Virus record (IMG/VR): IMGVR_UViG_3300025133_000055
Span: 1-64,000 of that record
Length of the DNA stretch: 64,000 nt
Strand: one strand, 5' to 3'
From: a virus
Shown: positions 13,909 through 64,000 of the stretch, in pieces
How positions within the stretch are numbered: position 1 is the first letter of the stretch
How the letters are laid out: every line of letters starts with the position of its first letter
Notes under the pieces: model-generated
What the model was told of the DNA's origin: nothing
Seen by the model: the letters and a program-made list of their open reading frames with translations, nothing else
Databases searched by the model: none
Position numbers and translations under genes: made by a program

Positions 13909-14058
13909 ATGAAACTGACAGATAAACAATTTTTGAATTTACTCAAAGATCTTATTAGAGAGGAAGTGGGCGATAGGGAGGTTCTTTTAGAAGCCCCGAA
14001 GAAAAAGAAAACCATTCGCGAAAAAACGAGTGCACGTGAAAAGACTAGACAAACATGA
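13909..14058 (+). CDS. Small basic protein with an N-terminal IIKEE-type tag
   Basis: A 49-residue ORF beginning MKLTDKQFLNLLKDLIREE, a variant of the N-terminal tag shared by many genes in 55.8-64 kb, followed by a Lys/Arg-rich tail (KKKKTIREKTSAREKTR). The tag ends in I-R-E, an (I/L)xE prohead-protease-like motif. The basic tail would suit a small DNA-binding internal head protein; this is inference. It overlaps the next gene by 29 bp. Confidence 0.5.
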   Translation: MKLTDKQFLNLLKDLIREEVGDREVLLEAPKKKKTIREKTSAREKTRQT

Positions 14059-14931: not shown

Positions 14932-16530
14932 ATGAAATCCTTATTTGAAAATTTTCGGCGCTGGTCCACACTAGATAGGACACAACTTCTTATAGAGGGA
15001 ATTCTTGACGATGTTAAAAAAAAATATCCAGACATTAACGCAGATGTAATAACGACTCTTTCCAATAAAGATCCTTCCGGCAGAAATAAATATTTAATGT
15101 GGATGGCCAACCAACTTTACACACGATTAGTTGTTATGGCTAAAGAAGCCGCAGCGACTGTCGCACCACAGGATATCCCGATATATGGTGACACTCTTGG
15201 GACACCTGCTATGTTTCGCCGGCGCTACCACATCGCCTATAACGCGGCAAAAGAGATAATAAGAGAAATAAAAAAGTTTCACGAAAACAGGCAGAGAATA
15301 AAAAACACGGATCTTGGCTCTTATAAAACCTTAGAAGATTTGAAAAAAGTTAATAGAGATCTGGGATTCACCGACAAACAAAAGAGAAAAAAGAAACGCG
15401 AAGCTGCAAGAGCCGGATCAAGTATCATTTTTCAAAATGATGATTTCTTTATGGTGAGGCCAACCACACAAAAGGCATCGTGCTACTACGGCCGGGGTGC
15501 ACCATGGTGCATTTCCAGACAGGGCAGTAATTATTTTCACCAATATACCAAAGAAGGTAAGGCTTTCTATATGATTTTGCTGAGAAATCTTGATGCCCAC
15601 GATACGGGGCAGCACATTGTAATAGTTTACAATTCGGAGCAAACAAGTACAAACCCTTCCGAAATATGGAATTTTGACAATAAGGAAATCGGATCCGTGG
15701 CTTTTTTTCGTCACATTACCAAAAACATTTTGGCCGGCCATGTTTCTGATTATGAAAGATTTTATGAAGAATATAAAACATTCTCTGGTCAGCCATCAGA
15801 AAAAATAACACCCGAAATTAAAAAAGTATCGGAAGCCATACTCGAAAATAAGGACTCCTTCAGCGGCCCAATATCGAAAGAGGAATTAAAAACATACGAC
15901 CCAGTAGATCTTGCAAACGCGATGATAAATGAATTTGAACAGGCCTATGAGACACTGGAGACTTCCGCATTTGAGAATAATTATGAAAACCCAGCAGATC
16001 CAGGTGAGGTCAACCTAGCAATTTACAATAATATCTTGGCTGAATATGAAGATAGTTTGCATGCTGTCAGTGTAGATTTAAATCTCGACAGTGAGGATCC
16101 GGAGAATATGCACTATTCCGCCGCAATGGGTTGGCCACTTCCCGATGATCTCAAATATGCATTAGACGACGACGGGGTTGCATACGATTTTGGAGACTGG
16201 CAAAATGAAATTGAAGAAATCTTCAAAGCAGCCGGAGAAGATAGAGGGATTGATCCAGATACAATAGATAGCAATGATTATAGGCAGGATCCAGTCGTTC
16301 GCTTTGACTTTTACCCAAAAATTGATGAATTGAACCATTCCGATGGATTTAGGGATTTCCTAATAAGAATTTCAGATTATGATGGGAAACATGATGAGGT
16401 TCTCCAGCTTTCGTTGCAAATGATGGAAGAGAAGGGAATTATTCGTTCCGACGAATCCGACGCCGCACTCGCCGAAAATGCTTCTTACGGAAAGTTATGT
16501 GAAAGCTGGAAGGGGTGGGTGAAGAGATGA
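14932..16530 (+). CDS. Tagged protein with a Cys/Trp CIS domain, probable internal head protein
   Basis: A 532-residue protein. The N-terminus MKSLFENFRRWSTLD resembles T4 capsid-targeting peptides (MKTYQEFIAEA type). Residues 170-260 hold a domain with KASCYYGRGAPWCISRQGSNYFHQYTKEG, split by conserved Cys, seen in other marine phage proteins without known function. The C-terminal half is acidic. The last residues, LCESWKGWVKR, echo the W-R-x-Y/W tag. It overlaps the next gene (ATGA). Packaging inside the head is inference. Confidence 0.5.
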   Translation: MKSLFENFRRWSTLDRTQLLIEGILDDVKKKYPDINADVITTLSNKDPSGRNKYLMWMANQLYTRLVVMAKEAAATVAPQDIPIYGDTLGTPAMFRRRYHIAYNAAKEIIREIKKFHENRQRIKNTDLGSYKTLEDLKKVNRDLGFTDKQKRKKKREAARAGSSIIFQNDDFFMVRPTTQKASCYYGRGAPWCISRQGSNYFHQYTKEGKAFYMILLRNLDAHDTGQHIVIVYNSEQTSTNPSEIWNFDNKEIGSVAFFRHITKNILAGHVSDYERFYEEYKTFSGQPSEKITPEIKKVSEAILENKDSFSGPISKEELKTYDPVDLANAMINEFEQAYETLETSAFENNYENPADPGEVNLAIYNNILAEYEDSLHAVSVDLNLDSEDPENMHYSAAMGWPLPDDLKYALDDDGVAYDFGDWQNEIEEIFKAAGEDRGIDPDTIDSNDYRQDPVVRFDFYPKIDELNHSDGFRDFLIRISDYDGKHDEVLQLSLQMMEEKGIIRSDESDAALAENASYGKLCESWKGWVKR

Positions 16531-17189
16531 AGCTCCTTATGGAAAACTGGCGAGAATATCTTAAAGAAGAAGCCATTGATGAAGTTTGGAATCCTTTTGG
16601 TAGACGAGACATCGACATCGGACCCCCAAGAGAGAAAAGGAATAAGAAGGAAGCTCAGATAAGTGGGGAAGACTTTAAACTCTCCGAAGAGGTCCTTGAC
16701 TACGCAAACAGTCTTATCTGTGTATTAAGTCTCCATGGAGAGGCCGGCGAGACCGGAAGACAGGCCGGCTTCCCCGATCGTGACTGTCACAAGTATCAGA
16801 AATTTGGTACTTCTCGGTGGCAGGACGACGACACATTCTATATCAGCAGCCCATACTACCGAGACTTTCCCCATGAAAACGAGACATTATCCGAGATGCT
16901 AGAAAGAGTAATAAGATTTTATGAAGAGCGCCTGGAACCACTTTTAACTAAGTTAATAATCGCGCGAGCACAAATAGAAAATTATGGTAAACGATTTCCA
17001 AAAGAACTGGGACGCACCGGGAAAGCTCACGACCGCCTCTCAAAATCAATCGGTGCTCTCGAACAGCATCGAAACGCTCTTTTGGGATTATACAAGAGGT
17101 TGCATGGTGTGGCACGTTTGCCAAAATATACACCAAAACCGGGGATATATGATCTCCAAAAATTGAGGAAGCATGCCACCGGCGCCTAA
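16527..17189 (+). CDS. Capsid-targeting-like tagged protein, function unknown
   Basis: A 220-residue protein starting at ATG 16527, which overlaps the upstream stop; this start puts the tag MKLLMENWREYLKEE at the very N-terminus. The tag matches MKLLIESWRKYLNE at 37294 and ends in L-K-E, the (L/I)xE form used by T4-type prohead proteases. The body has an EAGETGRQAGFPDRDCHKYQ segment and two long helices (residues 130-200). No catalytic motif recognised. A 18-codon ORF (17173-17229, MPPAPKKTNLFSPKPDED) overlaps its end and may be a leader or spurious. Confidence 0.55.
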   Translation: MKLLMENWREYLKEEAIDEVWNPFGRRDIDIGPPREKRNKKEAQISGEDFKLSEEVLDYANSLICVLSLHGEAGETGRQAGFPDRDCHKYQKFGTSRWQDDDTFYISSPYYRDFPHENETLSEMLERVIRFYEERLEPLLTKLIIARAQIENYGKRFPKELGRTGKAHDRLSKSIGALEQHRNALLGLYKRLHGVARLPKYTPKPGIYDLQKLRKHATGA

Positions 17190-23328: not shown

Positions 23329-23336
23329 GAGAGCAA

Positions 23337-37293: not shown

Positions 37294-37638
37294 ATGAAAC
37301 TTTTAATTGAAAGCTGGCGGAAGTATCTTAATGAAGGTGACGTTGTTGATCTCTCTTCTCACCCTAAATATAAAGTTCACCAAACAAAGGCAGAGAAGAT
37401 GATTGCCGCAGATGACTTGATCGAATGGGGCGCCAAATATTTAAACAGCACCAGATATGATGTCACCGAGAAACACAAAGAGTTAGCTAAATTCGCTGAG
37501 AAGGCCGAAGAGTTAGGTTTAAATTTGGGCAATGAGGAACTTCAAGATTTTATAGACGACTCATATATAGCACATGCCGCATACAAAGCCGAGCCTGAAA
37601 AAAAGCCATGGTGGAAATTTTGGGGTGATGAAAAATGA
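37294..37638 (+). CDS. Capsid-targeting-like tagged protein
   Basis: A 114-residue protein opening MKLLIESWRKYLNEGDVVD, nearly the tag of the gene at 16527, ending in L-N-E, an (L/I)xE protease-like site. The rest is helical and ends KPWWKFWGDEK. T4 internal head proteins have N-terminal peptides of this kind that direct them into the prohead and are removed by gp21. Packaging is inferred. Confidence 0.55.
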   Translation: MKLLIESWRKYLNEGDVVDLSSHPKYKVHQTKAEKMIAADDLIEWGAKYLNSTRYDVTEKHKELAKFAEKAEELGLNLGNEELQDFIDDSYIAHAAYKAEPEKKPWWKFWGDEK

Positions 37639-54060: not shown

Positions 54061-54360
54061 ATGAGTTTGAAAGTCAAAGATATCAAAGTCGGTGATATGC
54101 TAGTTTGCACCACCTCTTCCGAGGCTGCCGTCGAACCCGGCGTTGTAATTGGCAAATTCCTCGTTCTAGCAAAAGAAAGGTCCGAGGCCAACAATAATAA
54201 AAATGATGATAATACAGTTCTAACCTTACATATCATGTATAGGAACCACGAAGGTTCCAAACATGGCCATAAGCAAGGTTCAAACTTCAATATCGCCTTA
54301 GAGTATTTCAACCATGAAGTATACAGGTGGAAACTTGATTATCGTCCAGAGGAGGGATAG
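54061..54360 (+). CDS. FKxGD-family protein, tandem copy 2
   Basis: A 99-residue protein, KDIKVGDMLVCTTSSEAAVEPGVVIGKFLVLAKERSEANNN, ending YRWKLDYRPEEG. The block GKF-LVLAKERSEANNN is nearly identical to copy 3, showing a recent duplication. Confidence 0.65.
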   Translation: MSLKVKDIKVGDMLVCTTSSEAAVEPGVVIGKFLVLAKERSEANNNKNDDNTVLTLHIMYRNHEGSKHGHKQGSNFNIALEYFNHEVYRWKLDYRPEEG

Positions 54361-54654
54361 ATGAGTTTCAACCTTGAGGATGCCGCGCCCGGTGATATAC
54401 TAGTTTTGACCTCCAATTGGTCGAACCATTCGCTGAAAGTCGGCGAGCTACTTGGTAAATTCATCGTTGTCTCAAAAGAAAGGTCCGAGGCCAACAATAA
54501 TAATAATCCTCATTCCAAAGGTTTAACCTTGCATATCATCCAGGCCAAAGAGAGTTATCCTCCCCTGAGTAATAACATAGGAAGAAACTGCTCTTTCAGC
54601 TTTGATCAGATGGATGTCCCAATATTGACTTGGAAACTTGATTATCGTCCATAG
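54361..54654 (+). CDS. FKxGD-family protein, tandem copy 3
   Basis: A 97-residue protein, EDAAPGDILVLTSNWSNHSLKVGELLGKFIVVSKERSEANNN, ending LTWKLDYRP. The final EEG of copies 1 and 2 is lost to a stop. It is the last gene before the 967-bp repeat region. Confidence 0.65.
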   Translation: MSFNLEDAAPGDILVLTSNWSNHSLKVGELLGKFIVVSKERSEANNNNNPHSKGLTLHIIQAKESYPPLSNNIGRNCSFSFDQMDVPILTWKLDYRP

Positions 54655-54948
54655 GGGGAAAGAAATGGTTCAAAGTGGGTTATCGTGGGGGGACATCTGA
54701 CCCATAGGAATGGTAGTTTAAAGCCTGCATATGGCTGTTCCCTTATAGGCAAGGGAGAAAGCGGGGAATCATGCTTTGTATTTAGCCCCTTCTAACTAGT
54801 AAATCAACCCCTATATTATCAACAATATTATCCCCTTGCAACCCCCACAATGCCCCGTGATGCCCATATGAATGTGATCCCCCTCTATAGCGAAGGGTGA
54901 ACCACACATATCGCGGACACACTTAAAATAAACCTATGCCCTTGATAA

Positions 54949-54974
54949 GTCAGCTTTATGCTGGCTTTTTTTTT
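54949..54974 (+). terminator. Rho-independent terminator ending the accessory block
   Basis: GTCAGC (54949-54954), loop TTTAT, GCTGGC (54960-54965), then nine T (54966-54974). It is also part of the left arm of inverted repeat 1. Confidence 0.7.
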
Positions 54975-55049
54975 GTCAAGCATTATTATAACGAATTGAT
55001 ACAATGTTGACAATAAAGTGCTTGACAAGGGAAAAGCCAGCATCAAGCT
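54952..55049 (+). repeat. Inverted repeat 1 with triple-TTGACA loop
   Basis: Arms 54952-54981 and 55020-55049 match at 26 of 30 positions. The 38-nt loop (54982-55019) contains TTGATA (54996) and TTGACA (55007), and the right arm starts at TTGACA (55022): 11 and 15 bp spacing as in promoters P1-P6. Confidence 0.75.
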
Positions 55050-55062
55050 GGCTTATAGAGAA

Positions 55063-55094
55063 TTGATATAAACTTGACAACTTTGTGCTTGACA
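55063..55094 (+). repeat. Triple-TTGACA module without -10 (second copy)
   Basis: TTGATA (55063), TTGACA (55074), TTGACA (55089): spacing 11 and 15 bp. It is preceded by GAGAA and followed by GGGGAAAGCCGGGG. No matching left arm was found. Confidence 0.65.
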
Positions 55095-55163
55095 GGGGAA
55101 AGCCGGGGTTTAAACTTATATATAAGTTACCAGCCCATATTGAAAGGGGGATCGCCCTAAGAG

Positions 55164-55263
55164 AAGTTTATAACTGACCTTTCGTTTGTCAAGTATTATT
55201 ATGACGAATTGACATAAGATTGACATTAATTTGCTTGACAGACGAAAGGTCAGTTATAAACTT
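55164..55263 (+). repeat. Inverted repeat 2 with triple-TTGACA loop
   Basis: Arms 55164-55194 and 55233-55263 match at 29 of 31 positions. The 38-nt loop (55195-55232) aligns with that of repeat 1 and holds TTGACA at 55209 and 55220, with the third at 55235: spacing 11 and 15. The arms differ from those of repeat 1 but keep pairing. Confidence 0.8.
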
Positions 55264-55275
55264 GGCTATGACGAA

Positions 55276-55318
55276 TTGACATTCAATTGACATTCTCTTG
55301 ACAACTTAGTGCTTGACA
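55276..55318 (+). repeat. Quadruple TTGACA module
   Basis: TTGACA at 55276, 55287, 55298 and 55313: spacing 11, 11 and 15 bp. The sequence TTGACATTCTCTTGACAACTT is identical to that in promoters P1, P2, P3 and P5. Confidence 0.75.
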
Positions 55319-55353
55319 GGCTACTAATTACTTTGTAACTCCCTTATGGCGAA

Positions 55354-55384
55354 TTGACATGCATTTGACACAAATCGCTTGACA
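55354..55384 (+). repeat. Triple TTGACA module (last copy)
   Basis: TTGACA at 55354, 55365 and 55379: spacing 11 and 14 bp. No -10 lies at the expected distance. Confidence 0.6.
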
Positions 55385-55400
55385 CAAATTAATAAGTTAC

Positions 55401-55439
55401 AACCTGACATATCGACGATCCCAACTGATTTGTCAGGTT
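55401..55439 (+). repeat. Short inverted repeat 3
   Basis: AACCTGACA (55401-55409) and TGTCAGGTT (55431-55439) form a perfect 9-bp stem around 21 nt, next to the G8/C7 tract. Confidence 0.5.
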
Positions 55440-55591
55440 TAAAGGGGCATATGGGGGGGGTCCCCCCCTCCCCCCACCGGCCGGAAAGTACCTTCCTAAC
55501 TGGGATATGGGCCGCCCCGCGCTGATACACCCGCGAGAGAGCGATTCAAAAATTTCCCAGAATAAAAAAACACAGATATGCGATCCCTAAG

Positions 55592-55602
55592 AACTATTTA
55601 TA
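55592..55602 (+). promoter_or_regulatory. AACTATTTATA element (candidate late promoter)
   Basis: An exact copy 20 bp before the ATG at 55622, the first gene after the repeat region. Confidence 0.5.
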
Positions 55603-55621
55603 AGCAAGAGGATCAAGAAGT

Positions 55622-55822
55622 ATGAGTGGATTAGTGACAAAAGAAGAATTAAAAGAGCAATATAGTGCCCCAAAAGAAGAAGGCTTTGAAACCAAAGAAG
55701 AGTATTTAAACGCCAAGATTGCCTGGGTCGCATCGAACCCGGATGAATACCAAGAAATCCTAAATGCGTCAAGCGCAGATGAACTATTAATGCATGAAAA
55801 GAAAAGAGGATCCAAATCATGA
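55622..55822 (+). CDS. Hypothetical acidic helical protein
   Basis: A 66-residue protein, MSGLVTKEELKEQYSAPKEEGFETKEEYLNAKIAWVASNPDEYQEIL, ending MHEKKRGSKS. It overlaps the next tagged gene by 4 bp (ATGA). Probably a small virion-associated or head-assembly factor from context. Confidence 0.55.
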   Translation: MSGLVTKEELKEQYSAPKEEGFETKEEYLNAKIAWVASNPDEYQEILNASSADELLMHEKKRGSKS

Positions 55823-56286
55823 AAATCACGAAAAACCAGCTAAGAAAAATTATCAAAGAAGAAGTTCAAAAGGTTTTTGAAATAGACGCTTCTGGCAGAG
55901 GTGCTTGGGATCCCGTAAATGTCAAAAAAAGAGAAAAAGAAGTTCATCGACTTGGAAGAAATAAGATCGCACAATTGCGGCGTGATGCAGAAAAAGACCA
56001 AGAGGACCGCGCCAAATCTCCAAGGTTTGGTAAAAAAAATAATAAAAAAAATAATCCTTCCAAGGAAGAGGAGCCATCACCCATTAGCGAGGATGATGTT
56101 GGCGAACCCATCTATTCCCGCCATCATGGAGGGGAGGATGATTTGGATAGTCTAGATGTCATATTTGACCTAGCACAACAGATGGCTCTTTTCACCAGGA
56201 TGATACCAAGCGATCCTTTAAGAAATCAGCTTCAAGAGCTTATACAGAGCATTATCGATAAGCTCGGGGGAGAGCAGGGAGAGTGA
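55819..56286 (+). CDS. IIKEE-tagged protein
   Basis: A 155-residue protein. MKITKNQLRKIIKEEVQKVFE is the N-terminal tag; I-K-E gives an (I/L)xE site at residue 13-14. The middle is Lys/Asn/Glu-rich low complexity and the end helical (LAQQMALFTRMIPSDPLRNQLQELIQSIIDKL). Likely an internal or assembly-associated head protein by analogy with T4 capsid-targeted proteins; not proven. Confidence 0.55.
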   Translation: MKITKNQLRKIIKEEVQKVFEIDASGRGAWDPVNVKKREKEVHRLGRNKIAQLRRDAEKDQEDRAKSPRFGKKNNKKNNPSKEEEPSPISEDDVGEPIYSRHHGGEDDLDSLDVIFDLAQQMALFTRMIPSDPLRNQLQELIQSIIDKLGGEQGE

Positions 56287-56362
56287 CCTTTGAAAATCAA
56301 TGCAACAGCTAGCGATGAATTTGATGCGAACCTCAATAAAATCCTCCAGAATAAAACTTGAT

Positions 56363-56396
56363 AAAACTTGACAGAATTCGAGTTCTATGGTATAAT
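56363..56396 (+). repeat. 34-bp direct repeat, copy 1, containing a promoter
   Basis: The repeat contains TTGACA (56368-56373), 17 bp and TATAAT (56391-56396). An identical 34-bp copy lies at 56838-56871. The two flank the HNH gene. Confidence 0.85.
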
Positions 56397-56401
56397 AAAG
56401 T

Positions 56402-56881
56402 ATGAAGAGATGCTTTGAGTGCGACAAGACCGAAGATAATATTGAGATACATGATCACCATGTTGTCCCAAAAAGCCGTGGTGGAACGAAGACAATACCC
56501 CTTTGCTATGTGTGCCATGCATTGGTGCATGATAAGAGGGCAGTATCTAGTAGATATTTGATAAGGCAGGCACATAAAGAAAGAAGAAGTAAGGGCCTTG
56601 TCTGCGGCCACCCTCCTTACGGCTTCAGTCGTGGGGAAAAGGATGAACTTGTTGTGAACCCAGAGGAGCAAGCCATCTGGACTTATGTTGAGGAACTACG
56701 AAGCACACCACTAGGAAAAAAGAAAAAGCACCCGTGGCGAGCAATTGCCGAGAAACTAAACGAGCAAGGATTCAAAAACCGCTCTGGTCGTGAGTGGAAA
56801 CTTCACAATCTGTTCGTAATCAACAAAACCAAAAACAAAAACTTGACAGAATTCGAGTTCTATGGTATAATGGAAGAATAG
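56402..56881 (+). CDS. HNH endonuclease, probable homing type
   Basis: A 159-residue protein. CFECDKTEDNIEIHDHHVVPKSRGGTKTIPLCYVCHALVHDKR is an HNH domain with two CxxC-type zinc pairs and the DHHVV core. The second half, HPPYGFSRGEKDELVVNPEEQ...WRAIAEKLNEQGFKNRSGREW, resembles the recombinase-helix segment of serine recombinases and may bind DNA. Its last 11 codons are the second copy of the 34-bp repeat. The ATG lies 5 bp after the -10, so a leaderless mRNA is likely. Probably a mobile insertion. Confidence 0.75.
   Translation: MKRCFECDKTEDNIEIHDHHVVPKSRGGTKTIPLCYVCHALVHDKRAVSSRYLIRQAHKERRSKGLVCGHPPYGFSRGEKDELVVNPEEQAIWTYVEELRSTPLGKKKKHPWRAIAEKLNEQGFKNRSGREWKLHNLFVINKTKNKNLTEFEFYGIMEE
56838..56871 (+). 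repeat. 34-bp direct repeat, copy 2, containing a promoter
   Basis: TTGACA (56843-56848), 17 bp, TATAAT (56866-56871), inside the 3' end of the HNH gene. It would drive the ClpP-like gene downstream. It is followed by a GAATA pentamer repeated four times (56876-56896). Confidence 0.8.
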
Positions 56882-56999
56882 AATAGAATAGAATAGAGCA
56901 TGAAATGAGGCTTTTAAAATTTAAAAACTCAAAACCTCAAAAGTTTAAAGCCTTGAGCACGGAAAAAATTTCCGTCGAAAAAACAGAAGGATCAATCAA

Positions 57000-57566
57000 G
57001 TGGCAGCTTCATCATTACCGGTTCCGAAGGGAAGAAATTTATATCTCCCAAAGCAAGTTACTCAAGAATCAATGCATGATTTAACGAAATCAATCATTGA
57101 AATAAACGACAGCGATGATTATTTGAAAAAAATATATGCGATCCATGATTTGGTATATGTTCCCAAGCCGATCAAACTGTATATTGATTCCTATGGGGGT
57201 GCAGTTTATCAGTGCTTCGGTTTGATCGGTGTCATTGAAAAGAGCGAAACTCCTATATGGACAATTGTCACAGGTGCGGCAATGTCCTGCGGGTTCATGA
57301 TTTTAATAAACGGACATAAAAGACTTGGGTACACCCATGCAACTCCGCTCTATCATCAGGTTTCAACTGGGTTTCATGGCAAAGTCCAGGATATGGAGGA
57401 GACCCTTGCCGAAACGAAGCGGCTCCAAAAGAAGATCGAAGAAATGACATGCAGGTTGACAAACATCCCAAAAAAGAAACTCAAGGAAATTTTGAAGAAC
57501 AAAGTTGACTGGTTTATGGATGCAGAGGAGGCACTTCTTCTCGGTGTTATTGACGAAATCATTTGA
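57000..57566 (+). CDS. ClpP-like serine protease with full triad
   Basis: A 188-residue ClpP-fold protease, GTG start. Ser96 is in VTGAAMSCGFMILINGH, His119 in ATPLYHQVSTG and Asp170 in KVDWFMDAEEALLLGVIDEII. The first 60 residues are divergent. Prohead proteases in many phages are ClpP-like, and the surrounding tagged genes carry (I/L)xE motifs, so a head-maturation role is attractive but unproven. It is more likely active than the paralogue at 31295. Confidence 0.75.
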   Translation: MAASSLPVPKGRNLYLPKQVTQESMHDLTKSIIEINDSDDYLKKIYAIHDLVYVPKPIKLYIDSYGGAVYQCFGLIGVIEKSETPIWTIVTGAAMSCGFMILINGHKRLGYTHATPLYHQVSTGFHGKVQDMEETLAETKRLQKKIEEMTCRLTNIPKKKLKEILKNKVDWFMDAEEALLLGVIDEII

Positions 57567-57591
57567 TTCTTATTCTTTTATGTCTGATTTA

Positions 57592-57602
57592 AACTATTTA
57601 TA
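57592..57602 (+). promoter_or_regulatory. AACTATTTATA element (candidate late promoter)
   Basis: An exact copy in the gap before the cytochrome gene, 32 bp ahead of GTG 57635. Confidence 0.5.
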
Positions 57603-57634
57603 GAAGAAGCATTTAAATATATAGGAGGAGAATT

Positions 57635-58009
57635 GTGAAGAATATTGGAATAGGAATAATTCTATTAATTGGGGGGTTTGGGGTAATACTAATCAGTATG
57701 CTAGCATTCGTTTTTGGGGCAACAGTATCCCTGGCATCACAAGAGGAAAGAATTGGCAGCGCTGTAAACGGCCGAATTGTATACGAAGGCTTTTGCACAG
57801 GATGTCACCAAGCAGACGGTAAAGGAATGAATGGAATGTTGGGTGCAGATTTCACTGATAAAGAAAGAATGAAAAAATCAAACGACGAATTGCTTAAATC
57901 CATAAAATTCGGATTTAAAGGGAAGAACGGTGTGATGCCACCATGGGAAGGGACATTATCAGATAAACAAATGAAAGATGTTTTACAATATATAAGAGAT
58001 GAATTTTAG
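57635..58009 (+). CDS. Membrane-anchored c-type cytochrome (monohaem)
   Basis: A 124-residue protein. Residues 4-35 are a membrane anchor. The haem c site CTGCH is at 54-58 (YEGFCTGCHQADGKG) and Met101 in KNGVMPPWEG is the likely axial ligand, followed by LSDKQMKDVLQYIRDEF. This is the cytochrome c class I plan, located on the periplasmic side. It would need the host cytochrome c maturation system. GTG start behind AGGAGG. A truncated copy of its 3' end lies at 59184. Phage cytochromes are rare. Confidence 0.85.
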   Translation: MKNIGIGIILLIGGFGVILISMLAFVFGATVSLASQEERIGSAVNGRIVYEGFCTGCHQADGKGMNGMLGADFTDKERMKKSNDELLKSIKFGFKGKNGVMPPWEGTLSDKQMKDVLQYIRDEF

Positions 58010-58017
58010 GGGGAAGG

Positions 58018-59196
58018 TTGAAAAAAGCAGAAGAACAAGAAAAGCAAGAAGAATTGGTGAGCTTACAGAAGATAACCGAAAATACCGAAATATCAAAAAT
58101 AACTTTTAATACCCCAAGATTTACACAACTTTTAAGAATGTCAGGAGCTATACTTAAAAACAGGATTTCGTTTAAAAATCCGCTCATGTTAATGCACTCA
58201 GTCACTGAGGCATGTAATGCTAAATGCCCCTATTGTGTATTTCGCCATGGAAAAGGGGGCCCTAACGAAATGTCTCTAGACGAGATTTCCTCTCTATATA
58301 AAGAGGCGGAGAAACTTTCTATGCAATATGTTCACCTCTGGGGAGGTGAGCCGCTTATTCATCCGAGAATTTCTCAAATTTTAACCCTCGCAAAAGAATC
58401 TCGACTAATAACCGGACTTGTTACGAATGGTGCCTTTTTAAGAAAGAAGGCTGATGATATAATCCCCAAGCTTGATAGACTTTATATATCCCTTGATTAC
58501 CCGGGCCCTTATCATAACACTTTGAGGGAAACTCCTGGACTTTATGAAGCCACTATAGAGGGGGTTAAGTATATTCGCTCAAAATGGAAAGATCAACCAA
58601 TAGTCGTTAGTTTTACATTAATGAAAGATAATGCTGATGCTATTGTTGAAATGGCCGCATTATGTAGTGAAATAGGTGCAAGGCTATATGTTAATCCGAT
58701 GCGAGAAACTTCAAATTCAGATTCAGATCAAATCTCAATCCTCCAAAATAAAGAAGTTTTTGAGGTTAATAACAGTGACAGAATAATAAAGTGGACCGAA
58801 CAGTCTTTGATTTGGGAGCAGCTTATACAGCTTAAAAGACAGGGTTATCCCATTCAAAACTCTATGTATTATATGAAAATGTTGGCTAAAACTGGAAAAT
58901 CTCCAACCTACAAATGTCACTGGCCCAAGATTGCCATTGGAATAGAGTCTAATGGAGATATTGCAGACTGTCAAAGGTGGGGGAATCCAATTTCTAATAT
59001 AAGAGAGCAATCTCTCAAGGGTATTGTTCAGCTTCCAAGAATGAAGGAACTTTACGGGGCCTGCGGTGAAGCCTGTAATGAATGTGCATCTCCAGCTAGA
59101 GTGGAGCCTTCAAAATTTTGGGATCTCCATGTCGGAATGATATTGCAAACAGTGCAGAGTATGGTTTTTGGAGCACCTGTTCCAAAGAAAGAATGA
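58018..59196 (+). CDS. Radical SAM protein with C-terminal cysteine cluster (SPASM-like)
   Basis: A 392-residue enzyme with TTG start behind GGGGGAAGG. The radical SAM cluster is C66-x3-C70-x2-C73 (VTEACNAKCPYCVFRHGKG), followed by HLWGGEPLIHPRI and VTNGAFL. C-terminal cysteines in YKCHWP, IADCQRWG and YGACGEACNECAS fit a SPASM-type auxiliary cluster, found in enzymes that modify peptides or cofactors. Its substrate is unknown. It is 8 bp after the cytochrome gene, so the two are likely cotranscribed. Confidence 0.85.
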   Translation: MKKAEEQEKQEELVSLQKITENTEISKITFNTPRFTQLLRMSGAILKNRISFKNPLMLMHSVTEACNAKCPYCVFRHGKGGPNEMSLDEISSLYKEAEKLSMQYVHLWGGEPLIHPRISQILTLAKESRLITGLVTNGAFLRKKADDIIPKLDRLYISLDYPGPYHNTLRETPGLYEATIEGVKYIRSKWKDQPIVVSFTLMKDNADAIVEMAALCSEIGARLYVNPMRETSNSDSDQISILQNKEVFEVNNSDRIIKWTEQSLIWEQLIQLKRQGYPIQNSMYYMKMLAKTGKSPTYKCHWPKIAIGIESNGDIADCQRWGNPISNIREQSLKGIVQLPRMKELYGACGEACNECASPARVEPSKFWDLHVGMILQTVQSMVFGAPVPKKE

Positions 59197-59265
59197 AAAA
59201 AAATAAAAAAATCAAACGACGAATTGCTTGAATTCATATCTACAATATATAAGAGGTGCATTTTA
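59184..59265 (+). pseudogene. Truncated copy of the cytochrome c 3' end
   Basis: The sequence from 59184 repeats the cytochrome gene from 57860 (AAAGAAAGAATG, then ATCAAACGACGAATTGCTT) with an inserted 7-bp stretch. It then jumps to TACAATATATAAGAG at 59241, which matches 57984. About 90 bp between are missing. It brackets the radical SAM gene, so a duplication followed by deletion is inferred. Confidence 0.75.
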
Positions 59266-59275
59266 GGGAAGTTTT

Positions 59276-59286
59276 AACTATTTATA
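59276..59286 (+). promoter_or_regulatory. AACTATTTATA element (candidate late promoter)
   Basis: An exact copy 15 bp before GTG 59301, which has GGGGAAAG as ribosome site. Confidence 0.5.
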
Positions 59287-59300
59287 AGCGGGGAAAGCAA

Positions 59301-59594
59301 GTGAATTTAACAAAAAAACAATTAAAAAGAATTATAAAAGAGGAGCTTAATCTTCTCAATGAGCAAGAGCAAGAGCAAGCCCCAGCCAGGGCCCGCACAA
59401 ATGTCAAGCGTGTGTCTAAGAAGCTAGAAAAAGTCGCTGGACTTGATGAGTTGCTCGCCGGGCTAACAAATAGACAAGATCTTATACAATTTATTTGGAG
59501 TCAGGTTCTTCAAAAAGTTAGTGGAAACATTTCAAAACAAGATATCGGCGCCGCACTTAAAGCTCTTCTTGCTCAAGTGGCTAAATCAGGATAA
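59301..59594 (+). CDS. IIKEE-tagged protein
   Basis: A 97-residue protein from GTG 59301, MNLTKKQLKRIIKEELNLLNEQEQEQ, putting the tag at the N-terminus (an in-frame upstream start would bury it). The rest is Ala/Arg/Lys-rich then helical (DELLAGLTNRQDLIQFIWSQVLQKV). Confidence 0.6.
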   Translation: MNLTKKQLKRIIKEELNLLNEQEQEQAPARARTNVKRVSKKLEKVAGLDELLAGLTNRQDLIQFIWSQVLQKVSGNISKQDIGAALKALLAQVAKSG

Positions 59595-59605
59595 TAAAAA
59601 AACAA

Positions 59606-59902
59606 ATGAAAATATCAAAAGACACATTAAGAAAGATGATCATGCAAGAAATAAGAATTTCTATTGCCCAACAGGCGCCTGTCGAAGAAGAACTTGGTTC
59701 TGCTCAAACTTATGTTACAGCCAAGCCAACTTCCTATATTGCATCGCACGACGCAACGATGGGACAAATCTCTGAGGACGAGGACGAGGATGAAATAAGT
59801 GAGGGAACTACTGGAATTACCCTAACGAAGAATTGGCTAAAGACCATGGTTCAAGAAGCCATCGACGATTTACTTTTTTCAGATAAAGGTGTTGTTGAAT
59901 AA
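59606..59902 (+). CDS. IIKEE-tagged protein
   Basis: A 98-residue protein with a variant tag MKISKDTLRKMIMQEIRISIA; M-Q-E stands in the usual I-K-E position. The middle is acidic (SEDEDEDEISEG) and a second tag-like helix TKNWLKTMVQEAIDDLLF closes the chain. Confidence 0.55.
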   Translation: MKISKDTLRKMIMQEIRISIAQQAPVEEELGSAQTYVTAKPTSYIASHDATMGQISEDEDEDEISEGTTGITLTKNWLKTMVQEAIDDLLFSDKGVVE

Positions 59903-59920
59903 AAGGGGTGGAAAATTACA

Positions 59921-60070
59921 ATGAAAAAACATCTTAGAAATCTTATTAAAGAGGGGCTCGACGAGGCCTGCGGGATTCCCGCTGAACGTCTTCCCCTTAT
60001 AATAAAAGAACCTCCAAAGAAAAAAATCATTATTAGAATTCTAAGAAAAGCGAATAATGATTCAATTTAA
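59921..60070 (+). CDS. Small IIKEE-type tagged peptide
   Basis: A 49-residue ORF, MKKHLRNLIKEGLDEACGIPAERLPLIIKEPPKKKIIIRILRKANNDSI. Short tag, then a basic tail. GGGGTGG precedes the ATG and its stop overlaps the next gene by 14 bp. Confidence 0.5.
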   Translation: MKKHLRNLIKEGLDEACGIPAERLPLIIKEPPKKKIIIRILRKANNDSI

Positions 60071-60584
60071 ATTATCCCAGGGACTCCAAGACCGCGAGTT
60101 TAAAAATAAAAACCCCATTAAAGAAAAAATAGATCAAATGACTCATATTCTGCGTGAAGTGCAGAATATTAAGGATGAGCTTGACAAGTTAATTAAACCA
60201 GGAAACCTCCCTATTTCCAAAAATAATGAGAAGGAAACATGGGCCCAAGATGTTTTAGAGTTGTTGGGTGGACCTCACACAAAAAGTAATAAATTATTTG
60301 ATAGGCTATTATATCTTCATAAAAATTTTCATAATCTTTTTATGCCCATGTGGGATGATATAGACGGTATAGACTCGGAATGGGAAACCAAAATAAAAAA
60401 AATGTCCGAAGATTATTGGTCGATATATAGTTTGTTAAGCATACTGAGAGATTTTGCCCAATCTCTTATAGAGAGAGATTGGGGGGCCCTTGAGGGCATT
60501 TTAGATTTCTATTACGATAATTTTGTGTTATTTAATCTTCAAAATAAGCTAGACGGGAATATGTGGGAGCGCGCCCAAAACTAG
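60057..60584 (+). CDS. Helical hypothetical protein
   Basis: A 175-residue protein without a tag. It is helical throughout: MTHILREVQNIKDELDKLI, KLFDRLLYLHKNFHNLFMPMW, YWSIYSLLSILRDFAQSLIERDW. Function unknown. Confidence 0.55.
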   Translation: MIQFKLSQGLQDREFKNKNPIKEKIDQMTHILREVQNIKDELDKLIKPGNLPISKNNEKETWAQDVLELLGGPHTKSNKLFDRLLYLHKNFHNLFMPMWDDIDGIDSEWETKIKKMSEDYWSIYSLLSILRDFAQSLIERDWGALEGILDFYYDNFVLFNLQNKLDGNMWERAQN

Positions 60585-60604
60585 GAATAAAATAACAATA
60601 ATGC

Positions 60605-60633
60605 TTGACATCTCTACGAAAATATGTTATATT
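60605..60633 (+). promoter_or_regulatory. Sigma70-type promoter
   Basis: TTGACA (60605-60610), 17 bp, TATATT (60628-60633). It serves the lipoprotein at 60650 behind GAGGAAAAA. The frame's first TTG lies in the -35 box and is not a start. Confidence 0.7.
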
Positions 60634-60649
60634 TATAATAGAGGAAAAA

Positions 60650-61117
60650 ATGAAAGCAAACAAATTTAAACTCTCTTATATCATTGCATTCTGGCCGGCC
60701 CTATTCTTTGTGATGATTATGTTATGTTTATCAGCCCTTTCTGGGTGTTATGGCTATGATACGGGATATTATAGTCATAAGCATAATAATCCCGAGCGGA
60801 CACCAATGATCGAGGCAGTTAAGGCCTCGTGTTATTATAATTATACATACGACGACTATAAGTGGTACTTCGATGCTTGGGTTCACTACCCAAGATATGA
60901 TTTCGAAGGTGTCGTAGAAGTTCATGTTGATATTTTCGATGAAGGGTATCTAGTCGATACTTTTCCCCTATATCATAATAGGGAAAAGTATTGGGAGTCA
61001 CAATGGATCGAAATGGCGGAAACACACTTGTGGTGTGGAGACTACTACGAAGTCGAATTCGTTGCATATGATCACCAAGGGAATTTTGATATTTTTAGAA
61101 CAACTCCTTATTATTGA
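60650..61117 (+). CDS. Lipoprotein with a beta-rich exterior domain
   Basis: A 155-residue protein from ATG 60650. Signal peptide with lipobox LSGC (MLCLSALSGCYGYD). The mature part is rich in Tyr, Trp and acidic residues (SCYYNYTYDDYKWYFDAWVHY), resembling a small immunoglobulin-like sandwich. It has its own early-type promoter. Outer-membrane or periplasmic role such as superinfection exclusion is possible. Confidence 0.6.
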   Translation: MKANKFKLSYIIAFWPALFFVMIMLCLSALSGCYGYDTGYYSHKHNNPERTPMIEAVKASCYYNYTYDDYKWYFDAWVHYPRYDFEGVVEVHVDIFDEGYLVDTFPLYHNREKYWESQWIEMAETHLWCGDYYEVEFVAYDHQGNFDIFRTTPYY

Positions 61118-61163
61118 ATAAATTTGTATCTATAAAATTATTACTGGTTTATAAAACTCCTGA

Positions 61164-61174
61164 AACTATTTATT
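61164..61174 (+). promoter_or_regulatory. AACTATTTATT element (variant)
   Basis: A one-base variant, 24 bp before ATG 61198, followed by AGTGTTGG as in the copy at 34873. Confidence 0.45.
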
Positions 61175-61197
61175 AGTGTTGGAGAAATTTGATTTTT

Positions 61198-61722
61198 ATG
61201 AAATTAACAAGAGAACAATTATTACAGATCGTTCAAGAAGAACTCTCAAAAATTTTAAAAGAGAGTGACCCTCCATGGATTCGTAAACGAAGAGAGAAAG
61301 AAAAGGGAGGGAGAAAACAAATACCCCTGTATGTTCCTCAGTATAGAGAACCTCCCGAAGAAGAAGAAGAAGAGGAAGAAGAGGCTCGGAGGGGAACAAC
61401 CTATATAAGTGGGGGTAATATTCCAAGTGGGGGCAATATTCCATCAAGTAATATCCCGGAGGGAAAAATGTTTAAACTTACAAGATCACAGTTGAAAAAA
61501 ATTATAAGAGAAGAAATATCGAATATAGTTCATGAATCCGGAGAAGATTTCCTTCAAGATATAAAGTCAACCGGAGAATGGACAGATTATACCATCGCAC
61601 AGTTGGAAAAGAAGAAAGCCGCACTGATGAAGAAAAAGACAAGAACGAAGCCCGAACAAGAAAAGGTTAGTCAAATTACTTTTGCGATCAATGCCAAAGA
61701 AGGGGATTATAAGAAGAAATGA
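61198..61722 (+). CDS. Protein with two IIKEE tags, possible internal start
   Basis: A 174-residue protein from ATG 61198, opening MKLTREQLLQIVQEELSKILKE. After a Glu-rich linker and a repeated SGGNIP segment, a second tag, MFKLTRSQLKKIIREEISNIVHE, begins at codon 91 (61468). That ATG is preceded by CCGGAGGGAAAA, a good ribosome site, so a second product is likely from the same frame. The last part is basic helix. It overlaps the next tagged gene (ATGA). Confidence 0.6.
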   Translation: MKLTREQLLQIVQEELSKILKESDPPWIRKRREKEKGGRKQIPLYVPQYREPPEEEEEEEEEARRGTTYISGGNIPSGGNIPSSNIPEGKMFKLTRSQLKKIIREEISNIVHESGEDFLQDIKSTGEWTDYTIAQLEKKKAALMKKKTRTKPEQEKVSQITFAINAKEGDYKKK

Positions 61723-62090
61723 AATTATCCAGAAAAAGATTAAAACAAATTATCGCTGAAGAAATTCAAAGAGTGGAAGAGATTAAAAATGATGCCGTTC
61801 AATTAGCGACAATGCAAGATCAAATGAGCCAAATCAATGGTGGTGGAGATGATCAACTGATAATAGATCTCGGTTCTATGTGCGACGAGATGATCGATCC
61901 AATCAGTAGACTTAGCGATGGGTCGATGCAGGGTGCTCTACGACTATCTCTTGATAATTTAAGGGCAATTGTTGGCGAAATCGCACAAGATTTGAAAGGT
62001 AGAAGTAGGCAGGCGGTTCAATCGCCAGAACAACATATGGGGGGTGTGCAGCCGGCACAGGCGCCACCAACGCAAGAGGAGAATAGTTAA
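61719..62090 (+). CDS. IIKEE-tagged protein
   Basis: A 123-residue protein, MKLSRKRLKQIIAEEIQRVEEIKND at the start. I-A-E stands at the protease-like position. The rest is a helical acidic body with a Gln/Pro-rich tail (QSPEQHMGGVQPAQAPPTQEE). Confidence 0.6.
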   Translation: MKLSRKRLKQIIAEEIQRVEEIKNDAVQLATMQDQMSQINGGGDDQLIIDLGSMCDEMIDPISRLSDGSMQGALRLSLDNLRAIVGEIAQDLKGRSRQAVQSPEQHMGGVQPAQAPPTQEENS

Positions 62091-62468
62091 ATGTCACGAT
62101 GGGGAAAACCAATAAAAAATAAGAAAAGATTCGATGCTCGTTATTTTATGAGCGAAAGAGAAGAAAGGATTGATGAGATTCATCCTGGAGATCCTGGAAT
62201 TGACTCTAAAAAAAGAGATAGAAAGGAGCCTGGGGTTGATGGTGCACCATTCCCGGGTGGTTCAATTGAAGATCTTCCTCCTATTTCCGATGATATATTG
62301 CAACAAGAAAAAGAAAAAGCTCTAGCTACAAAATTGGGATTACCATGGAAGGGTACCGGTGGTCCGAACAAGATGGAACCTGGAGATTTTGATTGGGATG
62401 ATGTTGTTGATGAAGTGGAGGCTGCACAGGAAAGAACTGCACGTGCCACCGAATTGGAAGAAACTTGA
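62091..62468 (+). CDS. Hypothetical protein without tag
   Basis: A 125-residue charged protein, MSRWGKPIKNKKRFDARYFMSEREERIDEIHPGDPGIDS..., with Pro/Gly-rich, largely disordered sequence (DGAPFPGGSIEDLPPISDD). Likely a virion-associated factor from its neighbours. Confidence 0.55.
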   Translation: MSRWGKPIKNKKRFDARYFMSEREERIDEIHPGDPGIDSKKRDRKEPGVDGAPFPGGSIEDLPPISDDILQQEKEKALATKLGLPWKGTGGPNKMEPGDFDWDDVVDEVEAAQERTARATELEET

Positions 62469-62508
62469 ATGAAGCACGATGATCAGGATGATCATCAATA
62501 ATAAAAAA

Positions 62509-63000
62509 ATGAAAATTACACAATCACATTTAAAGAGACTTATTAAAGAAGAACTTCAAAAAGTTCTCCTTGAGGCGGAATATGATACAAAAGTAGCTAT
62601 GGATATGGCATATCTTAACTGCGATAACGCAACAGCAGGAGAATTTTGTGGTGATTTTTTTAATAAAGAAAGGGCCGATCACTGGGTAGATCTCAGGGAT
62701 GACCCAAAAGAGATAGAAAGAATAGGCCTATCCTTTCAGAAAAGAGGCTTATCTGCTGGAATGGTTGATCATTTGATGAAGATTTTAACCGTTATAAAAT
62801 GCATTCGCGCTGGATCTGATCAAAATGAAACCGTCCAAAGAGAAATTAAAACTATAGTTTCTGTTATTCGGGATATAATGGGTGTTGATGGAGAAATACA
62901 GTGTCCTCCAAGTGATACAGAAGAGCCTGAAGAATTAGATCACGAAGAAAGAGCCCAAAGATATCGAGATATTGGATACGGAAGGCCTTCTAGGGATTAA
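62509..63000 (+). CDS. IIKEE-tagged protein
   Basis: A 163-residue protein from ATG 62509, MKITQSHLKRLIKEELQKVLLEAEYD; starting earlier in frame would bury the tag. AYLNCDNATAGEFCGDFF and CIRAGSDQNE carry cysteines. The C-terminus is acidic then charged (TEEPEELDHEERAQRYRDIG). Confidence 0.6.
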   Translation: MKITQSHLKRLIKEELQKVLLEAEYDTKVAMDMAYLNCDNATAGEFCGDFFNKERADHWVDLRDDPKEIERIGLSFQKRGLSAGMVDHLMKILTVIKCIRAGSDQNETVQREIKTIVSVIRDIMGVDGEIQCPPSDTEEPEELDHEERAQRYRDIGYGRPSRD

Positions 63001-63015
63001 GGGGGTGGTATAAAT

Positions 63016-63102
63016 ATGGATATTCCTATTCCATTACCGTGCTTACTGTTTATTTTATTTGGATTATTTACTTTTTTGGTAGTACTTTATCTAAAAGATT
63101 AA
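63016..63102 (+). CDS. Membrane micropeptide
   Basis: A 28-residue ORF, MDIPIPLPCLLFILFGLFTFLVVLYLKD, one transmembrane helix. GGGGGTGG lies 10 bp upstream. Function unknown. Confidence 0.45.
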   Translation: MDIPIPLPCLLFILFGLFTFLVVLYLKD

Positions 63103-63116
63103 TAATTACTTATGAT

Positions 63117-63230
63117 ATGATGAAAAATAGAATTCCTTTAAAAGATTACTTGACATTCATTGCCGGAGTTGGTATAATGGTATTAATGATGGCGGGATTG
63201 ATTTCTCTTGCTCTCTTTGCAAATTGTTAA
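63117..63230 (+). CDS. Membrane micropeptide
   Basis: A 37-residue ORF, MMKNRIPLKDYLTFIAGVGIMVLMMAGLISLALFANC, one transmembrane helix. It lies before the last tagged genes. The ribosome site is poor, so the call is moderate. A promoter overlaps its coding sequence. Confidence 0.4.
   Translation: MMKNRIPLKDYLTFIAGVGIMVLMMAGLISLALFANC
63150..63178 (+). promoter_or_regulatory. Sigma70-type promoter
   Basis: TTGACA (63150-63155), 17 bp, TATAAT (63173-63178): perfect consensus, 80 bp before the tagged gene at 63258. The AACTATTTATA element follows at 63230, so the gene may have two promoter types. Confidence 0.6.
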
Positions 63231-63240
63231 ACTATTTATA
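63230..63240 (+). promoter_or_regulatory. AACTATTTATA element (candidate late promoter)
   Basis: An exact copy 17 bp before the ATG at 63258, with GCAGGAGATC as ribosome site directly following. Confidence 0.5.
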
Positions 63241-63257
63241 GCAGGAGATCTCAAAGA

Positions 63258-63866
63258 ATGATAATAACAAAGAACCAGCTACGAAGAATTATCAAAGAAG
63301 AAATTCAAAAAGAGTTGCTTAAAGAGGGCGATGAGATAATTTTGGCCCAACAAATTATTGATTCAATAATTGGCAGCATACTTGGTGCCGGTCTCGGTGC
63401 ACTCATCGCACTTCCTGGTATAGCGCTGGTTGATTGGTTGGGATCTCTTGGAATAGGTCCTGCGAAATATGATCATCAACTGAGAAAACAAGACGAAGCT
63501 AAAGCTTTGGAGAAAATTAAAGATGTTGTTGCGGGCACCTTCTTGGGCTCCGAAGATTATGAAGATCCAGACTACGAAGGTCCACCTCCAGGATACACCT
63601 CAATTGCACATGAAGAGGGGGCAAGAGAGAAGATAAAAAGAGAGATTGATAGAAGGCTAGAAGAACTCAAAGCTAGTGACGAGATTGAGGAACTGCGCCA
63701 AATGTTCAGAGAAGAGACTGATTCAGAGAAATCAGGATCGGCAAAAGAAGATATAACACAAGTTTGGCCGCTGCATGCATATGATGAAAAATTGAACAAT
63801 ATGACCCTTAAGGGCGCCCAGGAATATCTTCAAGCGAGACAGCAAACCAAAGACTGGAACGAATAA
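63258..63866 (+). CDS. IIKEE-tagged membrane protein
   Basis: A 202-residue protein. MIITKNQLRRIIKEEIQKELLKEGDE tag, then two hydrophobic stretches (IIDSIIGSILGAGLGALIALPGIALVDWLGSLG) that could span or insert in a membrane, then acidic helices. A packaged membrane-active protein delivered on infection is an attractive guess. Confidence 0.6.
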   Translation: MIITKNQLRRIIKEEIQKELLKEGDEIILAQQIIDSIIGSILGAGLGALIALPGIALVDWLGSLGIGPAKYDHQLRKQDEAKALEKIKDVVAGTFLGSEDYEDPDYEGPPPGYTSIAHEEGAREKIKREIDRRLEELKASDEIEELRQMFREETDSEKSGSAKEDITQVWPLHAYDEKLNNMTLKGAQEYLQARQQTKDWNE

Positions 63867-63868
63867 AA

Positions 63869-64000
63869 ATGAAGCTTACAAAAAAATATTTAAGAAAATT
63901 TATTAAAGAGGAACTGGCCAAGGTCGTAGAAGACGAAGCTCACAATCCACTGGCAGCGCGCAACACCCTAATGAGGGATCTTGGCGCAGGTGAGGCTACT
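63869..64000 (+). CDS. IIKEE-tagged protein (5' part only)
   Basis: The window ends 44 codons into this gene: MKLTKKYLRKFIKEELAKVVEDEAHNPLAARNTLM.... The tag is intact with I-K-E. The remainder is outside the window. Confidence 0.6.
   Translation, partial: MKLTKKYLRKFIKEELAKVVEDEAHNPLAARNTLMRDLGAGEAT

Follow-up and report, generated by a model that had tools for sequence, protein, structure and literature searches.

The window analysed here is a 64,000-nucleotide stretch of viral DNA belonging to an 87 kb contig, and all of the features given below with start and end coordinates lie on its + strand. Eight genes in the window start with a common peptide, termed tag A (MK(I/L)T..QL+.IIKEE), and a ninth tag A gene, at 64182, is located just past the window end. 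The original prediction had assigned the tag to these eight genes, and each of them carries it at the expected position. The gene at 55819..56286 encodes a protein of 155 aa, in which MKITKNQLRKIIKEEVQKVFE precedes an unrelated basic body (tag A profile score 48.6). Downstream are a gene with a GTG start at 59301..59594 (97 aa; (V/M)NLTKKQLKRIIKEELNLLNE followed by Q; score 42.5) and a gene at 59606..59902 (98 aa; N-terminus MKISKDTLRKMIMQEI; score 12.4), the product of which is also tag-like at its C-terminus (LTKNWLKTMVQEAIDDL, from 59822), a feature that had escaped the prediction. The 174-aa product of 61198..61722 has MKLTREQLLQIVQEELSKILKE followed by S at its N-terminus (score 41.0), and the second tag copy claimed for this gene was found internally at 61468/61477 (FKLTRSQLKKIIREEISNIVHE followed by S; score 44.1). 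The gene at 61719..62090 (123 aa; score 35.7) has a tagged homologue at 185674 in the relative G022, with an SDGSMQGA motif in both proteins. The remaining tag A genes are 62509..63000 (163 aa; MKITQSHLKRLIKEELQKVLLE followed by A; score 44.8), 63258..63866 (202 aa; MIITKNQLRRIIKEEIQKELLKE followed by G; score 40.8), and 63869..64000 (MKLTKKYLRKFIKEELAKVVEDE), which continues beyond the window end to 64180. Two small ORFs that had been counted as tagged proved to be partial, marginal matches only, namely 59921..60070 (MKKHLRNLIKEGLDEACG, recognized by eye only) and 13909..14055 (MKLTDKQFLNLLKDLIREE..LLE followed by A; tag A profile score -2.7).

A genome-wide search for the tag, which the prediction had called for, revealed more tagged genes than it had listed, together with a second family, tag B (MKLLLENWRKYLNE), that it did not contain. 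Thus, the proposed sharing of a tag holds, whereas the proposal of a single family does not. Tag B is present on at least nine genes of the 87 kb contig: two in the window, at 16527..17189 (220 aa; MKLLMENWREYLKE; tag B profile score 43.7) and 37294..37638 (114 aa; MKLLIESWRKYLNE followed by G; score 38.8), and seven beyond it, at 68820-72652. A degenerate tag B (MKSLFENFRRW..LLIE followed by G; score 2.5) begins the 532-aa protein encoded at 14932..16530, which resembles a clean tag B protein in L129. An origin of tag B by copying of the capsid propeptide (LLENQAKELLRE) looked attractive, but the by-eye likeness is not significant (rank 21/184 and 19/233) and was rejected as evidence.

The sharing of these N-termini is far above chance. 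When 16-mers from the N-termini of genes on the 87 kb contig were compared pairwise, 31 pairs reached a score of at least 30, whereas each of the eight listed replicates (of 20) of an internal-segment control gave no such pair. The codon-shuffled contig gave a mean of 0.0 tag matches vs. 17 observed, the codon-permuted tag pattern had no match in 2.9 million viral contigs, and 1.1 Mb of random viral DNA contained 0 tags. In both tags, information content is high only at the start, over residues 1-16 of tag A (329 non-redundant proteins) and residues 1-14 of tag B (143 non-redundant proteins), beyond which it falls to background. These results bear out the predicted shared start followed by divergence, with only the tag residues conserved. 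A short N-terminal peptide common to otherwise unrelated proteins is one criterion of a T4-type capsid-targeting sequence (CTS), and it is met here.

Another criterion, the prohead-protease motif (L/I)-x-E at the end of the peptide, is also met, as both tags end in (L/I)-x-E at the same residues. In tag B, an [LIVM]xE ending occurs at residues 13-15 in 147 of 165 proteins that were selected on residues 1-9 alone; the predicted (I/L/V)-x-E ending is therefore genuine and cannot be put down to selection alone. The (L/I)xE ending is near-universal in tag A, for which the set counted was drawn largely from loci found with the IIKEE pattern. Its first candidate site is at residue 14, and a second is present at residues 19-24 in 103 of 220 proteins, compared to 8-11 in control windows; about half of the proteins lack a second (L/I)-x-E. 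In most proteins, the residue after the IKE at residue 14 is Glu, which is unusual at P1'. If tag A is cleaved, which is inferred, the scissile Glu is likely often that of the second site (residues 19-27) rather than of the IKE at residue 14. Several tags in the G005 genome end in GL(I/L)xE at approximately residue 27, after which the bodies diverge. The capsid proteins of tagged phages have an N-terminal extension ending in LLRE or LLKE before A/S/T/N, and T4 gp23 has FLTE at its known site. The tag boundary thus matches LLRE, at which the capsid proteins of these phages are predicted to be cleaved, in agreement with capsid targeting.

The presence of a gp21-type (Peptidase_S77) protease and a gp23-type capsid protein, also a criterion of T4-type CTS, is fulfilled in the tagged phages and in the nearest relatives but not on the fragment that includes the window: its 87 kb contig has neither a prohead protease nor a capsid gene, so the link to T4-type heads runs through relatives. 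Among tagged contigs larger than 100 kb, the gp21-type protease (PF03420) was detected in 18 of 20, as was gp23 (PF07068), and the same head-gene comparison gave 9/20 for tagged contigs of 37-99 kb. PF03420 was found in none of 20 random contigs of 32-101 kb, a set that is smaller in contig size than the large tagged one and unmatched for habitat. It was present in all eight relatives picked by replication genes rather than by the tag, and in LR756508.1, a 484 kb uncultured phage whose tags lie 14-23 kb from the gp23 gene. In the larger-genome clade, the conserved gene directly after the protease starts with the tag A-like KISRNALKGLVKECLVEILAEG. Six such protease-adjacent genes have tag A profile scores of 14-24 and rank 5-9 vs. 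5,119 control windows, the higher scorers among which include genuine tags; in the nearest relatives of the window, this gene is only modestly tag A-like (rank 4/184 and 8/233). In addition, the gene that directly precedes the protease in L249 carries tag B, and tag A is found on a gene closely preceding the terminase in G021 and on the one that immediately follows the capsid gene in G005.

The bodies that follow the tags are unrelated and include NUDIX, GNAT, kinase, nucleotidase, and ParB/Srx-like enzymes, although the window's own cargo gave no confident Pfam match. Some enzyme families occur with tag A in certain phages and with tag B in different ones, the alignment starting just past the tag. 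Such a swap was seen in NUDIX proteins and in proteins with an HHMTI motif (2H phosphoesterase-like), which mostly align from residue 22-31. For the ParB-like cargo, a fold search returned modest matches to sulfiredoxin/ParB-like structures (Z up to 6.4), and profile matches in the PDB to designed TIM barrels were judged spurious. The YHAT..GFYF motifs of the tagged cargo at 70970 point, by eye only, to an ADP-ribosyltransferase; this guess found no Pfam or PDB match, and the structural model has a pLDDT of 34, with too few homologues. An amidoligase-like assignment for 65471 and 74114 was dropped for lack of Pfam support.

Single genomes harbor up to 23 tagged ORFs of two tag types, and the number varies greatly between close relatives (approximately three confident tags in G021 and 3-4 in G022). 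In a tblastn search of 50,697 phage records, in which the short queries limit sensitivity, tag A was found only in LR756508.1 and tag B was not found. Tag A DNA occurs in five assemblies among 84,980 prokaryote species, all of them MAGs, and one of the MAG contigs with tag A (305,838 bases) has a PF03420 protease gene. A Halobacteriovorax MAG was set aside as evidence, since its protease contig (108,871 bases) differs in length from its tagged contig (101,404 bases). We found no earlier description of these tags in the open-access literature searched, which does not exclude one elsewhere.

The codons of the tags are position-specific. Across approximately 100 loci, Glu14 is encoded by GAA in 87 and GAG in 10, compared to 47 and 43 for Glu15 (p 3e-8), and in tag B Leu3 is mostly CTC, Leu4 CTA or TTA, and Leu5 CTT (p 5e-15 and 9e-21). 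Together with ATGAARCTCCTACTTGAAAATTGG, which is common to seven adjacent genes save for one GTG start, this codon choice indicates that the tags are copied as DNA. The same observations would fit a shared start that is chiefly a DNA module, acting as a translation start, promoter, or recombination anchor for cassette exchange, with no function of the peptide. However, the residues remain constant while synonymous codons differ (in 45% of same-residue comparisons among tag A copies and 30% among tag B copies), and (L/I)-x-E falls at the same residues in both tags. Copying as DNA is compatible with a peptide function and both are probably true; a purely DNA-level explanation is quite improbable.

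If the peptide is functional, its destination could be a different phage structure, such as the tail, the baseplate, or a replication or assembly compartment, with (L/I)-x-E as a mere acidic helix cap. The tags are amphipathic (mean moment 0.52 vs. 0.31 shuffled for tag B, and 0.31 vs. 0.26 for tag A) and able to dock anywhere, and several tag A clusters of G005 lie far from the head operon. We nevertheless consider this unlikely, given the tag A-like N-terminus on the gene adjoining the prohead protease, the position of tagged genes right next to those for the protease, capsid protein, and terminase, the enzymes among the cargo, and an (L/I)-x-E that is fixed even where selection used residues 1-9 only. 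A peptide that acts in the infected cell, as a degron, an inhibitor, or a membrane- or ribosome-docking element without any link to the virion, is left room by the absence of virion data and the unknown function of most cargo. It is made highly improbable by the strong restriction of the tags to phages with T4-type heads (18/20 vs. 0/20 random contigs) and by the near absence of tag A DNA from prokaryotes outside those few MAGs, one with PF03420 on the tagged contig.

Comparison of sequences establishes the shared tags, the unrelated bodies, the tag exchange, and the (L/I)-x-E boundary, and likewise the T4-type head genes in tagged phages, the tag A-like gene in the head operon, and the copying as DNA. 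We infer, with a probability of approximately 0.8, that tags A and B are removable capsid-targeting sequences, as on the T4 internal proteins, with a large cargo that can be swapped; that these proteins reside in the virion, are cleaved, and are injected is an inference without protein-level evidence. The T4-type capsid targeting put forward in the original prediction is in this respect supported by the protease and capsid genes, the protease-adjacent tag A-like gene, the A/B exchange, and (L/I)-x-E, while its single family, its IKE site, and its inclusion of 13909 and 59921 are corrected. According to the capsid-targeting model, T4-type phages would use A and B interchangeably at the N-terminus, and each tag would form a short amphipathic helix by which the protein behind it is docked to the core or inner shell of the prohead as the head assembles, with the docking partner inferred. 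A gp21-type prohead protease would then cut after (L/I)-x-E at or near the tag end, and the freed cargo would stay in the head until its ejection, together with the DNA, into the host. This cargo would comprise fast-changing small proteins and enzymes (nucleotide/ADP-ribose hydrolases, acetyltransferases, kinases, ParB/Srx-like, and metalloprotease-like proteins), and its plausible roles are to oppose host defences or to reprogramme the host during the first minutes.

Phage-injected proteins act before any phage gene expression and are the first place to look for anti-defence and host take-over functions. They are usually identified singly, by virion mass spectrometry, and a handful were known in T-even phages. 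Because the shared tags likely load heads, the proteins that a virus carries could be listed from its genome alone. If this is true, a readable tag would allow sequence searches for injected proteins in uncultured phages, yielding hundreds of candidates with predicted enzymatic activities as well as new peptides for loading cargo into capsids. The evidence leans only slightly toward a broader proposal, in which a large group of T4-like and huge phages, most of them uncultured, would deliver effectors from the virion by a general system of two parallel, interchangeable, DNA-copied loading tags, one of them shared with a prohead-core protein; each phage would carry tens of rapidly exchanged effectors, and the injected set would be readable from the genome alone.

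T4 Alt is an injected ADP-ribosyltransferase with N- and C-terminal propeptides, and this head-packaged enzyme is resembled both by the 70970 cargo, on its by-eye motifs, and by the 59606 protein with its tag-like sequence at both ends. In phiKZ and SPN3US, many internal proteins are matured by the prohead protease (PMC5694885), but the propeptides there are mostly longer than 100 residues rather than short interchangeable tags. The N-terminal residues of phage P1 DarB suffice to package a reporter, and no tag is common to the Dar proteins (PMC9024508), whereas tags A and B are shared among proteins. A precedent is T4 itself, in which the CTS directs packaging and injection (PMC9026906, PMC12373910), the first 10 residues of IPIII are enough for packaging, and gp21 cuts after L/I-X-E (PMC9026906). 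A Pfam search for IPI_T4 (PF11634) matched 0/20 genomes and was uninformative, since the positive control likewise remained unmatched. IPII and IPIII start with MKTYQEFIAE followed by A, and a resemblance of the tags to this CTS (MKTYQEFIAEA) in the MK start and an (F/Y)(I/L)xE end rests on inspection by eye only, the peptides being too short to score. As with the CTS of IPI, IPII, and IPIII, a short MK-starting N-terminal peptide ending in (L/I)-x-E occurs on otherwise unrelated proteins in phages with T4-type protease and capsid genes. The tags differ from it in sequence and are longer (14 and approximately 22-27 residues), and they belong to uncultured phages without experimental proof. With two tag families per phage, up to 23 tagged ORFs per genome, and enzymes among the cargo, they would be a variant of the known CTS principle.

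The window makes up the first 64 kb of an IMG/VR virus record of 87,145 bases. Eight window genes (55819, 59301, 59606, 61198, 61719, 62509, 63258 and 63869) start with tag A, consensus MK(I/L)T..QL+.IIKEE, as the original prediction of a shared N-terminal sequence had claimed for these positions, and a ninth (64182) lies just beyond the window. The double tag claimed for the 61198 gene was likewise borne out, its second copy being internal to the gene; the 59606 protein also has a tag-like C-terminus. A second tag, tag B (MKLLLENWR(K/E)Y(L/I)NE), had been overlooked; it is carried by window genes 16527 and 37294 and by seven adjacent genes beyond the window (68820-72652, locus L003). Tag matches numbered 17, versus a mean of 0.0 after codon shuffling of the contig, and gene N-termini of the contig gave 31 pairs of 16-mers scoring at least 30, with no such pair among its internal segments in the replicates listed.

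Conservation, computed over non-redundant proteins (329 tag A, 143 tag B), is confined to residues 1-16 of tag A and 1-14 of tag B and is at background level thereafter. Both tags have (L/I)-x-E at residues 12-14, and among tag B proteins selected on residues 1-9 only, [LIVM]xE ends at residue 13-15 in 147 of 165. A second (L/I)-x-E lies within residues 17-24 in 103 of 220 tag A proteins, versus 8-11 in control windows, and the residue after it is often Gly, Ala or Ser. Several tags of the viral genome G005 read MKISKRQLKRIIREEYSRLKRQGLI(T/N/S)E, after which the sequences diverge. Given this enrichment, the residue that follows and the point of divergence in G005, the second site, where present, is the better candidate for the inferred cleavage.

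Codon choice depends on position (one protein per locus; p down to 9e-21): Glu14 is mostly GAA and Glu15 mixed, and in tag B Leu3, Leu4 and Leu5 are mostly CTC, CTA and CTT. Since, in addition, the seven consecutive L003 tag B genes have nearly the same 24 bases in common (ATGAARCTCCTACTTGAAAATTGG), the tags have spread by DNA copying, which fits cassette exchange of cargo. In one tag B protein (L156:2249-2581) the stretch of tag from NWR to the DWR repeat that follows it is truncated, as recombination might leave it. Among homologous NUDIX proteins, those at loci L334, L340 and L344 have tag A and those at L210 and L136 have tag B; proteins with an HHMTI motif carry tag A at L113 and L098 and tag B at L134 and L227. 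Most cross-tag alignments of both groups begin at residues 22-31, directly after the tags. This exchange on homologous proteins is the best evidence, from sequence comparison, that tags A and B may serve the same function.

Pfam matches among 120 tag B proteins included NUDIX (5), protein kinase (4), zeta-toxin-type kinase (2), 5' nucleotidase (2), GNAT (2) and nucleotidyltransferase (2); those among 100 tag A proteins were few, including AAA_33 (2), one zeta-type and one TseH-like. None of the tagged proteins in the window itself had a confident match. On its contig, gene 69374 encodes a GNAT protein, and the 71680 model (eight aligned sequences, pLDDT 74) consists of a helix, which is the tag (residues 2-16), and one domain, whose predicted structure has modest sulfiredoxin/ParB-like matches (Z up to 6.4). 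The bodies of the seven L003 genes differ, GNAT, ParB/Srx-like and HELTHF metalloprotease-like ones being among them. The same contig encodes two large related proteins (65471 and 74114; 610 and 872 aa) with FEIELE..DGSL..G.EF motifs, amidoligase-like by eye only and without Pfam support; their L227 homologue bears a clean tag B.

Elsewhere in the window, three tandem related small genes (53785-54654; 91-99 aa) have the common ending DYRP(EEG), and nearly 1 kb (54655-55621) has no convincing gene on the plus strand, unlike the rest of this gene-dense contig. The region adjoining the tag A island (56905-59196) encodes, by eye, a ClpP-like protein (57000), a c-type cytochrome with CTGCH (57635) and a radical SAM protein with CNAKCPYC (58018), which are possibly host-derived. 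A DnaE-type DNA polymerase, a PurZ-like 2-aminoadenylosuccinate synthetase and a phage GroEL are encoded at 19909-24338 and 33303-34871; the PurZ-like gene hints at a possible modified adenine.

The degenerate tag A pattern and the tag B pattern each matched at least 120 stretches in IMG/VR, where a codon-permuted tag A control gave zero matches, and the tags were absent from 1.1 Mb of random viral DNA (120 stretches). A search of 84,980 prokaryote genomes showed tag A in five assemblies only, all MAGs. Contig NHDW01000006.1 (305,838 bases), from a MAG of Methylococcaceae TMED69, is rich in tags and encodes a T4-type protease; it is probably a phage that was assigned to the bacterial MAG during binning. 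Among annotated phages, tblastn detected tag A only in LR756508.1, an uncultured phage of 484 kb in which seven tag A-like genes lie at 187-195 kb.

Tagged contigs longer than 100 kb encode both the gp21-type protease and gp23 capsid families in 18 of 20 cases, the other two being fragments (108 and 123 kb). The protease was found in 9 of 20 tagged contigs of 37-99 kb, as expected since these are fragments, in 8/8 relatives picked by replication proteins, and in 0/20 random contigs of 32-101 kb, which are shorter than the large tagged contigs and unmatched in habitat. Neither gene was found on the window's own contig. Its close relatives G021 and G022 have the order terminase, portal, protease, 140-aa gene, scaffold-like gene and capsid gene, resembling T4 20-67-68-21-22-23. 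The start of the 140-aa gene shows modest likeness to tag A in their clade (rank 4 of 184, 8 of 233) and clear likeness in a larger-genome clade (scores 14-24, rank 5-9 of 5,119). Predicted capsid propeptides end in LLRE or LLKE; a resemblance of tag B to the capsid propeptide was not significant.

Cleavage of the tagged proteins, their place in the virion, their injection and the partner that they dock to are all inferences, made without virion data. The first 10 residues of T4 IPIII are enough for packaging, and gp21 cleaves after L/I-X-E (PMC9026906); the T4 internal proteins have only the leader in common and, once injected, inhibit type IV restriction enzymes (PMC12373910). Tags A and B fit this logic.
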